Shown piece by piece: positions 1,873 through 20,426 of a stretch of 32,463 nucleotides of DNA. The DNA is taken from positions 1-32,463 of the forward strand of contig JACQHH010000084.1 of the NCBI GenBank assembly GCA_016199125.1, given 5' to 3'. The translations under genes were made by a program, and so were the position numbers. Positions within the stretch are counted from its first letter, which is position 1, and each line of letters begins with the position of its first letter. The notes under the pieces were generated by a model that made no database searches, was not told the DNA's origin, and saw nothing but the letters and a program-made list of their open reading frames with translations. Source of the stretch: Candidatus Lambdaproteobacteria bacterium (GTDB taxonomy: Bacteria; SAR324; JACQKK01).

Positions 1873-3024
1873 ATGGAGCTTCTGGAACTGGAACGCCGGC
1901 TGATCGGCTTCGACACCGTCAGCGCCCATTCCAACCTGGCCCTGATCGAGTTCCTGGAGGGACGGCTCAAGGCCCTGGGGCTGCGCGTGGAGCTGTTCCC
2001 CAACGCCGACGGCAACAAGGCCAACCTGCTGGCCACCCTGGGCGCGCCGGACACGCCGGGGCTGATGCTCTCCGGGCACACGGACGTGGTGCCGGTGGAG
2101 GGCCAGGCCTGGAGCTCCGACCCCTTCACGCTGACCCCCGGCGACGGGCGCTTCTATGGCCGGGGCACGGCGGACATGAAGAGCTTCCTGGCCCAGGTGC
2201 TGCTGGCGGTGCAGGCGGTGCGCCACCGCCGCCTGCGCCTGCCCCTGCACGTGGCCGCCACCTACGACGAGGAGGTGGGCTGCCTGGGCGCCGGCGACAT
2301 GCTGCGCCAACTCGCCGCTGCGGGGCGCATGCTGCCGCGCTGCGCGGTGATCGGCGAGCCCACGGGCTTCCAGGTGTTCAGCATGCACAAGGGCATGTGC
2401 CGCGTGCGCGTGGGCATCAAGGGGGTGGAAGGACACAGCAGCAAGCCCAACATGGGCGCCAATGCGCTCTACCCCGCCGCGCGCATCATCCAGCAACTGG
2501 CCGAGCTGGAAGCCGAGCGCCGCGCGCGGCGCTCCTACGAGGACGCCTTCGAGCTGCCCTACACCACGGTCAACGCGGCGGTCGTGCACGGCGGCACCGC
2601 GTTCAACATCATCCCCAACCGCTGCGACCTGGAGTTCGAGTTCCGCACCATGCCCGGCGAGGACCCGGACTACGTGCTGCGCCAGGTGCAGGGCTTCGTG
2701 GACGAGGTGGTATTGCCGGACCTGCGCCGGCAGCACGGGGACACGGACATCCGCGTGGAGAAGGTGATGCAGGGCGCGCCCATGCTCACCCCGCCGGGCA
2801 CGGAGATCGAGGCCCTGGCACTGGAGCTGACCGGGCGCTCGCGCTCGGGCGCCGCGCCCTACTACACGGAGGGCGCGCTGTACAACGCCGCGGGCATTCC
2901 CACGGTGATCTGCGGGCCGGGGGACATCGACCAGGCCCACCGCGCCAACGAGTTCATCACCGCCGAGCAGCTCCAGGCCGGGCTGCCCTTCCTGGGGCGG
3001 CTCATCGAGCGGGTCTGCCTGTGA
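1873..3024 (+). CDS. argE: Acetylornithine deacetylase (M20 family)
   Basis: MELLELERRLIGFDTVSAHSN...LMLSGHTDVVPVEGQAW...FYGRGTADMKSFLA...TYDEEVGCLGA; M20 metallopeptidase/ArgE motifs. Confidence 0.85.
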   Translation: MELLELERRLIGFDTVSAHSNLALIEFLEGRLKALGLRVELFPNADGNKANLLATLGAPDTPGLMLSGHTDVVPVEGQAWSSDPFTLTPGDGRFYGRGTADMKSFLAQVLLAVQAVRHRRLRLPLHVAATYDEEVGCLGAGDMLRQLAAAGRMLPRCAVIGEPTGFQVFSMHKGMCRVRVGIKGVEGHSSKPNMGANALYPAARIIQQLAELEAERRARRSYEDAFELPYTTVNAAVVHGGTAFNIIPNRCDLEFEFRTMPGEDPDYVLRQVQGFVDEVVLPDLRRQHGDTDIRVEKVMQGAPMLTPPGTEIEALALELTGRSRSGAAPYYTEGALYNAAGIPTVICGPGDIDQAHRANEFITAEQLQAGLPFLGRLIERVCL

Positions 3025-8090: not shown

Positions 8091-8987
8091 ATGAGCGATG
8101 CACACGCGCCGCGGCGGCCCTCCGCGGACCCCGCGGACACTGGCGATTCCCTGCTGCCCGCGCCGCCCTGGATGCTGGGGCCCCACCGCTGGGACTTCCG
8201 CGTCCCGCTGATCATGGGCGTGCTCAACGCCACCCCCGACTCCTTTTCCGACGGCGGCGAGTTCCTGCGCCTGCCGCAGGCCCTGGACCGGGCGCTGACG
8301 CTGGCGCAGGAGGGGGCCGACGTGATCGACCTGGGGGGCGCCTCGTCCCATCCCCGCGCGGCTCCGGTGAGCGCGGCGCAGGAGCTGGAGCGCATCGCCC
8401 CCGTCGTGGAGCGCCTGGTGCGCGAGGTCGCCCTGCCGCTGTCCATCGACACCCAGCGCGCCGAGGTGGCCCAGGCCTGCCTGGCGCTGGGAGCGCACCT
8501 GATCAACGATGTCAGCGGCCGGGCCGATGCCAGGATGATCGCCGTGGCCGCGCGTCAAGGCGCGCCGCTGGTGATCACCTACAACAACTACACCGTGCCG
8601 CCCCCGGCCAACGCGGCGGAGCTGGTGCCGCACATGCGCGCCTTCTTCGCCGAGCGCATCGCGGCCGCCGAAGCCGGCGGGGCCCTGCGCCTGCTGCTCG
8701 ATCCGGGCTACGGCTTCGGCAAGACCGTGCAGGGCAGCCTGGGCGTGCTGCGCGAACTGCCGGCGCTGCGCCCCCTGCGGCGGCCGCTGCTGGTGTGCAC
8801 CTCGCGCAAGGGCTCCCTGGGCCGCATCACGGGCGAGGCCGACCCCAAGCGGCGCCTGGGCGCCAGCATCGCCACCAGCCTGTTCGCGGTCACGCGCGGC
8901 GCGGCGTTGGTGCGGGTGCACGACGTGGGGCAGTTCCGCCAGGCGCTGCGGGCGTGGCGCGCCGCAACGGGCGAGGACGAGGTGTAG
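8091..8987 (+). CDS. folP: Dihydropteroate synthase
   Basis: IMGVLNATPDSFSDGGEF...IDLGGASSHPRA...LINDVSG...LLLDPGYGFGKT...LVCTSRKGSLGRITG. Confidence 0.85.
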   Translation: MSDAHAPRRPSADPADTGDSLLPAPPWMLGPHRWDFRVPLIMGVLNATPDSFSDGGEFLRLPQALDRALTLAQEGADVIDLGGASSHPRAAPVSAAQELERIAPVVERLVREVALPLSIDTQRAEVAQACLALGAHLINDVSGRADARMIAVAARQGAPLVITYNNYTVPPPANAAELVPHMRAFFAERIAAAEAGGALRLLLDPGYGFGKTVQGSLGVLRELPALRPLRRPLLVCTSRKGSLGRITGEADPKRRLGASIATSLFAVTRGAALVRVHDVGQFRQALRAWRAATGEDEV

Positions 8988-13066: not shown

Positions 13067-13199
13067 GGCGGGGTTCCCGTTGGGGTGGGTGCGCTGCGGG
13101 AGGGACGCCACCGGGCGACATGCTCCGGCCGCCGCCCGCTGCACGTCCATCCTCTCACGACCGCCTTGACTTTGCCAGCGCGCGCCGGTAGCTGTGGGG

Positions 13200-13408
13200 A
13201 CGTTGGGTGCCCCCTTGAAGAGGGGTTAAAAGGGAATGCGGTGCAATGCCGCAGCTACCCCCGTAACTGTGAGCGCCATTCGGACCTGCCGCATCGGCCA
13301 CTGGGACTGACAAGCCTGGGAAGGCCGGCGGGTCGCGCGCAAGCCAGGAAACCTGCCCGACATTCGACTTCGGTAATCCTTCGGAGGGAAGGAAGAAGCA
13401 CCCACCGG
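13200..13408 (+). ncRNA. Cobalamin (AdoCbl/B12) riboswitch
   Basis: Core 'aaaagggaatgcggtgcaatgccgcagctacccccgtaactgtgagc' plus the B12-box 'agccaggaaacctgcc' (13342-13357); closing P1-like stem TGGGTGC (13204-13210)/GCACCCA (13398-13404). Confidence 0.93.
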
Positions 13409-13595: not shown

Positions 13596-14912
13596 ATGGA
13601 TGCGATGCAGGGCCGCGGCAGCACGGGATTCGGGTCGGGGCGCGCCGGGCGATGGGCCGCGGCGCCGCTGCTGGCGCTTGTGCTGGCGGCGCTGGCGCTG
13701 TCCGCCTGCGACCAGGTGGAAAGTTGGCTGGAGCAGGCGGCCGGCGAGCCCGCGCGCAGCGACCCCACGGGCCAGGTGTCGCAACCGCCGGCCGCGGTGC
13801 CCTCCGGCCCGCAGCTTTACTGCATCGCCAACATCGGGCGCACCATCGTGGTCTACAGCCTGGCCGAGCGGCGGGTGCTGGGCGACACGCGGCGGGTGCT
13901 GCATTCCGACCCCGTGGGGCCCTGGTTCGCCGGCGGCCAGGGCTATTACCTGTCGCGGGTGGCCGGAGACGGCTCGGGTCAGAACGCCCTGCTCCGCTTC
14001 GATCCGGTGACCCTGGCCCAGACGGGGCGGCTGAGTTTTGCCCCCAACTCCAATCCCGTAACGCTGCTGGTGCATCCGCAGGGCGGGCTGGCCTACGTGG
14101 CCCTGGCCGGCTCGTCCTTCGACAATTTCGCCACCAACGGGCTGGCCGTGGTGTCTTTGCCGGGGCTGAGCCTGTTGAGCTTTCTGGACCTGAACGCCGC
14201 GACAGTGTATCCCCCGGGCCACACGGGCGCCCGCTGGACGTCACTGGACGGGCTGGCCTGGGACGACGCCTGCGCGCTGGGGCCGTGCCTGTACGCCGTG
14301 GCCAACAACTGGAACGGGGTGCTGCGCGCGGGACGGCTGCTGGTGCTGGCGCTGGATGGCGTGGGCCTGCCTTCCATTGCCGATGCGATTGCCCTGGGCA
14401 TGAGCCCGCAGGGCGCGCCGTTGCTGGATGATCCGGACGATGGCTCCCGGCCGCGCAGCCTGTGGGTGGTCAACAACGGCGGCTACCTGGACTTCGGCGG
14501 GGAGCCCGGCACCCTGCAACGGCTCGACCCGGCGCTGTTCGCCGACGACACGCCGGACAACGAGACCCTGGCCCTGCTCACCTCGGCCAATACCTCGCAG
14601 CTTCCCGCGGACCCCACCGGCATCTTCCGCTTCAATGGGGAGCGCGCCTGGATCACCAGCTATCCCGACGACGTGGTGGCCACGCTGGAGCTGGACACGG
14701 CGACGCTGGCGCCGCTGGACGCCACCCTGCCGCGCATCACGGGACCGCTGTTTTCCACCACCGACCCGGCTCCGGCGCTCTTTGCCGGCATGGGCGGCTA
14801 TGGGCCGGCGGCCCTGGGCGAGCTGGATACGGCCGGCGGCGCGCTGCTGGCCACGCACAACCTGGGCGCCGGCAACGGCGGCCTGACCTGCGCCGAATAC
14901 GTCGTGCCCTGA
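13596..14912 (+). CDS. Lipoprotein with predicted beta-propeller (YncE/BtuG-like architecture) under the B12 riboswitch
   Basis: Lipobox LALSAC after a hydrophobic signal; repeats such as LYCIANIGRTIVVYSLAERRVLG, ALLRFDPVTLAQTGRLSF, VTLLVHPQGGLAYVALAG, GLAVVSLPGLSLLSFLDL, VVATLELDTATLAPL. Confidence 0.75.
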   Translation: MDAMQGRGSTGFGSGRAGRWAAAPLLALVLAALALSACDQVESWLEQAAGEPARSDPTGQVSQPPAAVPSGPQLYCIANIGRTIVVYSLAERRVLGDTRRVLHSDPVGPWFAGGQGYYLSRVAGDGSGQNALLRFDPVTLAQTGRLSFAPNSNPVTLLVHPQGGLAYVALAGSSFDNFATNGLAVVSLPGLSLLSFLDLNAATVYPPGHTGARWTSLDGLAWDDACALGPCLYAVANNWNGVLRAGRLLVLALDGVGLPSIADAIALGMSPQGAPLLDDPDDGSRPRSLWVVNNGGYLDFGGEPGTLQRLDPALFADDTPDNETLALLTSANTSQLPADPTGIFRFNGERAWITSYPDDVVATLELDTATLAPLDATLPRITGPLFSTTDPAPALFAGMGGYGPAALGELDTAGGALLATHNLGAGNGGLTCAEYVVP

Positions 14913-19336: not shown

Positions 19337-19425
<89 letters not shown>

Positions 19426-19455: not shown

Positions 19456-19678
19456 GTCGCCCCCGCGCGGGGGCGTAGATTGAAACTTCGACTACCCCGG
19501 CGGGGCTACCGCGCCCGTTCCGGTCGCCTCCCGCGCGGGGGCGTGGATTGAAACGCCGATACCAGCTCGCGCATCCGTTCCGGCCGCTGGCTCCCCCGCA
19601 TGCGCGGGAGTAGACCCACCTCCTTGGCGACCAGCAGGCTTTCGCGGCCGGCTCCCCCGCATGCGCGGGTATCGACTC
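19456..19678 (+). CRISPR. Degenerate CRISPR relic with two I-C-like repeats followed by two I-E-like repeats (3 spacers), no cas genes in the window
   Basis: R1 19456-19486 GTCGCCCCCGCGCGGGGGCGTAGATTGAAAC; R2 19523-19554 GTCGCCTCCCGCGCGGGGGCGTGGATTGAAAC; R3 19589-19617 GGCTCCCCCGCATGCGCGGGAGTAGACCC; R4 19650-19678 GGCTCCCCCGCATGCGCGGGTATCGACTC; spacers of 36, 34 and 32 nt. Confidence 0.85.
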
Positions 19679-19879: not shown

Positions 19880-19966
19880 GGTTTGTCGGACGAGGAACTG
19901 GACTTCATCGTGGACCATGAGATCAAGTACCGGATGGGCTTGGACAAGGTCGAGGCTGGCGAATGA
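19880..19966 (+). pseudogene. C-terminal remnant resembling Eco57I/PglX-type adenine-specific DNA methyltransferase tail
   Basis: Open frame after TAG (19877-19879): GLSDEELDFIVDHEIKYRMGLDKVEAGE*, similar to the '...EELDFIINYDIKYRMG' C-terminus recalled from such methyltransferases. Confidence 0.5.
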
Positions 19967-20223
19967 GGTTCCGGTTGTCGAAACACGTGGAGGAGGAACT
20001 GCGCAGGCGGCGCATTCCGCGGGAGGCGCTGGAGCTGGTGCTGGAAGTGCCGCAGCAGATCATCGAGGAACGGATCGGCCGCAAGGCATACCAGTCGCAA
20101 GTGGAATTTGAAGGGGGTAAACTGTACCTGCTGCGGGCCATCGTATTCGACGGCGTGGACCCGGCGCTGGTGGTGACCGCGTATCGCACGAGCCGCATCC
20201 GCAAGTATTGGAGGGAGCCATGA
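19963..20223 (+). CDS. DUF4258 domain protein (putative toxin-like component)
   Basis: MRFRLSKHVEEELRRRRIPREALELVLEVPQQIIEERIGRKAYQSQVEFEGGKLYLLRAIVFDGVDPALVVTAYRTSRIRKYWREP. Confidence 0.75.
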   Translation: MRFRLSKHVEEELRRRRIPREALELVLEVPQQIIEERIGRKAYQSQVEFEGGKLYLLRAIVFDGVDPALVVTAYRTSRIRKYWREP

Positions 20224-20426
20224 GAGTGACCTACGATCCGGAAGTGGACGTGCTGCGCATCCTGTTCAGCAACGCCGCCATCGAGGAGAGCGACGAGGAC
20301 AAGCCGGGCGTGATCCTGGACTACGACAAGGACGGGAACGTGGTCGGGCTGGAAATCCTCGACGCCTCCACGCGGGTGGACAACCCGACAGCCGTGGAGT
20401 TTGTCAACGCCGCCACGCAGCGGTAA
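20220..20426 (+). CDS. DUF2283 domain protein (putative antitoxin-like partner)
   Basis: MRVTYDPEVDVLRILFSNAAIEESDEDKPGVILDYDKDGNVVGLEILDASTRV; ATGA overlap with the DUF4258 ORF. Confidence 0.8.
   Translation: MRVTYDPEVDVLRILFSNAAIEESDEDKPGVILDYDKDGNVVGLEILDASTRVDNPTAVEFVNAATQR

Follow-up and report, generated by a model that had tools for sequence, protein, structure and literature searches.

Orphan or degenerate type I-C arrays (repeat ...GTGGATTGAAAC) are composed of I-C repeats and spacers of I-C length, with no cas genes nearby. Orphan or degenerate type I-E arrays (GGCTCCCCCGC...GGATRGACCC, as in Bosea and Pontibrevibacter) have 29-nt repeats, a period of 61 nt and a degenerate last repeat. 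In phages, solitary repeat units can serve as RNA anti-CRISPRs (Racr), which inhibit CRISPR-Cas systems, types I-C and I-E included (PMC10651486). In the published Racr screen, repeats no more than 100 bp apart were counted as arrays and excluded (PMC10651486).

The locus described here lies at positions 19456-19678 of the window, which is the whole 32,463-nt stretch of DNA that was analysed. Four CRISPR repeats were found there in the same orientation, two of type I-C followed by two of type I-E. The I-C part resembles orphan I-C arrays in its repeats, its spacer length and the absence of cas genes nearby, whereas it runs directly into repeats of another subtype. The I-E part has the repeat length, period and degenerate last repeat of orphan I-E arrays; unlike them, it has no I-E leader or cas genes, and an I-C repeat stands upstream in place of the leader.

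Repeats and spacers of the mosaic locus

The first type I-C repeat, R1 (19456..19486, + strand; GTCGCCCCCGCGCGGGGGCGTAGATTGAAAC), is 31 nt long and has 29-30/32 identity to I-C references. Compared to the 32-nt I-C consensus, one base is deleted, as the earlier note had reported, and one G>A change is present. A 36-nt spacer, S1 (19487..19522, +), separates R1 from the second I-C repeat, R2 (19523..19554, +; GTCGCCTCCCGCGCGGGGGCGTGGATTGAAAC), which is 32 nt long and has 30-31/32 identity to I-C references. Both repeats end in GATTGAAAC. The Rfam model CRISPR-DR9 matched R1 (weakly) and R2, in both cases below the gathering score. The 34-nt stretch S2 (19555..19588, +) forms the junction between the I-C and I-E parts and is the presumed place of fusion.

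The first type I-E repeat, R3 (19589..19617, +; GGCTCCCCCGCATGCGCGGGAGTAGACCC), is 29 nt long and has 25/29 identity to the I-E repeats of Bosea and Pontibrevibacter. After it come the spacer S3 (19618..19649, +), whose 32 nt are the canonical I-E length, and R4 (19650..19678, +; GGCTCCCCCGCATGCGCGGGTATCGACTC), also 29 nt long, with 24-25/29 identity to I-E references. Both start with GGCTCCCCCGCATGCGCGGG, and the 29-nt repeats, 32-nt spacer and 61-nt period were all measured as first described. The 3' end of R4, which had also been noticed before, was seen to be degenerate in the comparison with the I-E references, as is found in leader-distal last repeats. None of 500 Markov simulations of the region produced exact direct repeats of 18 or 20 nt. 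Since no simulation contained exact direct repeats of at least 18 nt, the four-repeat pattern is not a product of chance.

The two halves of the locus were separated by subtype. While R1 and R2 were 29-31/32 identical to the I-C references (from the genomes G004 and L032), their identity to I-E references was at most 21; R3 and R4 were 24-25/29 identical to the I-E repeats of Bosea and Pontibrevibacter, versus at most 21/32 for I-C. R1 and R2 hence have the features of I-C repeats (about 32 nt, ending in GTGGATTGAAAC, like those of I-C loci), and R3 and R4 those of I-E repeats (29 nt, 61-nt period, like those of I-E loci). The references are themselves linked to cas genes: one I-C reference repeat comes from the Cas8c/Cas1 locus of G004, a member of the same family, and the Bosea and Pontibrevibacter arrays directly adjoin cas1e/cas2e. 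R3 differs from these cas-associated I-E references at 4 of 29 positions. Because of the repeat identities and the position of the references beside cas genes, the mosaic reading is sound. The proposal of I-C-like followed by I-E-like repeats in one short relic was therefore supported by repeat identity, spacer lengths and cas-linked references alike. A match on a Bosea plasmid spanning R2 to R4 (H1) turned out on inspection to be an ordinary I-E array.

A comparison of the spacers with phage databases, as suggested in the earlier note, gave no convincing protospacer in phages for S1, S2 or S3, and nothing convincing was found in IMG/VR for the cores of S2 and S3. A 19/19 match of S2 to a Bordetella phage helicase gene was at chance level (E = 0.4). 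The likeness of S1 and S2 at their 3' ends was not convincing either (letter shuffles, p ~0.03, best of three pairs).

Genomic context and relatives in the family

The relic begins 31 bp past a tRNA-Ser gene with the anticodon GGA (19337..19424, +), which was identified by ARAGORN and Rfam. A functional array has one repeat type, a leader and intact repeats, whereas two types are present here, R1 and R4 are damaged, and only these 31 bp lie between the tRNA and R1. The gene that precedes the tRNA is syntenic in two relatives, G003 and G004. In both, the tRNA is followed by an SRP RNA-like sequence (recognised by eye, not by a model) and then by dnaX. In the window, the relic comes first after the tRNA, and past it lie a DUF4258/DUF2283 pair, genes for DUF6502 and DUF5666 proteins, a histidine kinase gene and one for a glutaminyl/glutamyl-tRNA synthetase. 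Since G003 and G004 carry the SRP RNA-like sequence and dnaX at this place, the gene order breaks at or just after the 3' end of the tRNA.

The first gene with a Pfam match past the relic encodes a DUF4258 protein (19963..20223, +). It overlaps the gene of a DUF2283 protein (20220..20426, +; Pfam), of which a 79% identical homologue was found by tblastn at a different place in G001; the two genes are a possible toxin-antitoxin-like pair. An integrated element at the tRNA end is possible. A search for a second copy of the tRNA end gave none with telling neighbours, no phage genes were found among the window ORFs scanned with Pfam, and no promoter- or terminator-like site was matched at the relic. 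Elsewhere in the window, positions 13188-13374 gave a strong match to the cobalamin riboswitch (112.8 bits).

The absence of cas genes nearby, claimed earlier, held for the window ORFs scanned with Pfam. No I-C or I-E repeats were found elsewhere in the assembly (73.5% complete, 238 contigs), and searches of the same assembly with models of Cas1, Cas8c and Cas7e gave no match. In a genome that is 73.5% complete, this absence is supportive of a relic and not proof of one. The intact I-C and I-E loci that the earlier note had recommended looking for were thus not found in the assembled part, whereas relatives in the same family carry an I-C locus (G004) and I-E-type repeats (G005), so that matching repeats do exist in the family.

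The genome G004 has a full I-C locus with Cas8c (Csd1) and Cas1, followed by a long array that ends without an I-E repeat. This array, on contig C4 at ~519900-540700, is very long (~20 kb, with at least 245 matches to the query). The locus is located ~170 kb away from the tRNA-Ser, and the array site is therefore not ancestral in G004. In G005, an I-E-type array is interrupted by the contig end, and Cas1 and Cas7e were not found in that genome. A search of the relatives for an intact ancestor, also proposed earlier, yielded none with both arrays whole.

Recurrence of the junction in other genomes

In our scan of 85,462 genomes, a junction was defined as an I-C repeat end with an I-E palindrome 24-52 nt past it, in this one order. 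Seven places were found, four of which are plausible I-C to I-E junctions: L030 in an FCPU426 genome, L032 and L033 in deltaproteobacterial MAGs, and L036 in a member of Desulfobulbaceae. The other three (L031, L034 and L035) were not I-C/I-E array junctions when inspected.

In L032, L033 and L036, an I-C array carries a single I-E repeat at its distal end, and that one repeat is the sole exact I-E-type palindrome in each genome. These arrays share with the window the order and orientation of the parts, a similar gap (28-46 nt) and the lack of any other I-E-type repeat in the genome. They differ in composition: their I-C repeats number 3 to 31 and the I-E repeat is single, compared to two and two in the window. 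In the FCPU426 MAG (L030, 5059-7090), I-E cas genes and their array are followed ~900 bp on by a lone I-C repeat, 31 nt and a lone I-E repeat, and related small helical-protein genes lie on both sides.

No further junctions were found in an order-level sample (41 genomes, searched with the I-E repeat), a class-level sample (52 genomes) or a 395-genome sample of the phylum around G061. Since these extra samples gave no more cases, the arrangement is rare, being present in a handful of other genomes. A search of the open literature for mixed, mosaic or chimeric CRISPR arrays returned no relevant paper, which is weak evidence of absence.

Fusion and decay as the probable origin of the relic

We consider it likely that the locus is what remains of two arrays, a piece of an I-C array that became joined to the leader-distal end of an I-E array and is now decaying as an orphan. 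The I-C and I-E parts would each have been made by normal spacer acquisition, as the canonical spacer lengths suggest. A deletion or rearrangement would have brought an I-C and an I-E spacer together at 19555-19588, and the same event may have removed the leaders, the cas genes and the remainder of both arrays. The leftover would now be mutating and is probably functionless in this genome.

The distance between the two parts agrees with such an event. The I-C/I-E gap is 34 nt in the window, 31 nt in L030, 46 nt in L032, 33 nt in L033 and 28 nt in L036. A model of random spacer-to-spacer joins predicts a mean of 33.5 nt and an SD of 7.8 over the scanned range, and the observed values were 34.4 and 6.9. 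Random joins can explain the gap lengths without a special spacing rule, in a test that is weak because the scan itself bounded the gap range. Exactly one I-E repeat is left in four of the five known cases, a uniformity beyond what random deletion would predict; it could come about if arrays that are no longer used erode through recombination between their repeats.

Two origins had been put forward in the earlier note. Fusion of two arrays is favoured by the random-join gap, the same orientation of all repeats, the degenerate R4 and the synteny break. The I-C locus of G004, the I-E-type repeats of G005 and the four junctions in unrelated genomes also speak for it, whereas the uniform single I-E repeats, the distance of the G004 locus from its tRNA-Ser and the lack of an ancestor with both arrays whole count against it. 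The deletion or rearrangement event is inferred, since no intact ancestor was found, and so are the former nearness of the two arrays and the inertness of the relic. The second origin, insertion of units of one system into the array of the other, finds no support at this locus, where the I-C repeats have no I-E repeat on their upstream side.

Viral repeat clusters and other explanations

An explanation that the earlier note had left out is that the locus comes from a viral RNA anti-CRISPR cassette, in which a mobile element inserted at the tRNA gene would have placed repeats of the two subtypes side by side, and whose transcribed decoys would tie up I-C and I-E Cas proteins. Three viral contigs (L047, L048 and L064) make this a real rival. 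They contain clustered solitary repeats in the same order as the window, I-C, then in some cases I-F, then I-E, and phage genes are present on two of the three (L047 and L048). No cluster with the reverse order, I-E then I-C, was found in viral contigs. Like these clusters, the relic consists of repeats without cas genes, and it adjoins a tRNA gene, a common integration site. A Racr, however, is a solitary repeat outside an array, whereas the window has two copies of each type, paired with canonical spacers at array spacing. In addition, the window repeats are decayed, phage genes among the ORFs scanned with Pfam, a promoter or terminator match and a second copy of the tRNA end were not found, and we regard a viral origin of this locus as unlikely. 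It is likewise doubtful that the I-C and I-E tandem, rather than being a random relic, is a recurring composite with RNAs that would act on two CRISPR systems at once, whether as a cassette derived from a viral anti-CRISPR or as a unit retained at the distal end of I-C arrays.

The viral clusters differ in their details. In L048 (IMGVR_UViG_3300047493_000028, 14085-14270), an I-C-like end, an I-F repeat (CACTGCCGTACAGGTAGCTTAGAA) and an I-E-like repeat lie within ~110 bp, and a strong terminator-like hairpin follows the I-E-like repeat. This cluster resembles an RNA anti-CRISPR cassette directed at three subtypes. L047 (IMGVR_UViG_3300008517_001012, 8905-8980, minus strand) has a solitary I-C repeat, a hairpin that is I-F-like or a terminator, and an I-E-like repeat, past which a further motif, GTCTGCTACGCGCGCGCAGGGCACTG, is repeated with a spacing of ~61 nt. 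On the small viral contig L064 (IMGVR_UViG_3300038312_000355, 2833-2935, minus strand), a solitary I-C repeat, 11 nt and a solitary I-E repeat are followed by another hairpin.

The locus might instead be a maintained orphan mini-array, with its crRNAs used by Cas proteins encoded in the unsequenced part of the genome. Orphan arrays can make use of Cas proteins in trans, the assembly lacks a quarter of the genome, and transcription of the tRNA, 31 bp upstream, could continue into the repeats. The mutations in R1 and R4, the absence of a leader, and the lack of other repeats and of Cas1, Cas8c and Cas7e in the assembled 73.5% make this quite improbable. An assembly error, with reads from two arrays or two organisms wrongly joined, is also quite improbable: the draft is fragmented (238 contigs), CRISPR arrays assemble badly, and L032 and L033 likewise begin inside their arrays, but the 32-kb contig holds the relic in its middle part, the I-C and I-E repeats share no long word able to mislead an assembler, only two mutated copies of each repeat type are present, and like junctions recur in unrelated assemblies.

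Implications

Fusion followed by decay hence remains our preferred origin for the relic, and the multi-subtype viral clusters are a more novel lead than the relic itself and merit a study of their own. They suggest that some phages carry adjacent decoys directed at two or three subtypes, a kind of cluster that may have escaped notice, since the published screen set aside repeats lying this close together. Whether the single I-E repeats that end I-C arrays are chance leftovers or were kept for a reason is testable by a census of gaps and order. Each CRISPR subtype normally keeps its own arrays, and junctions of two subtypes record the loss or replacement of a system.
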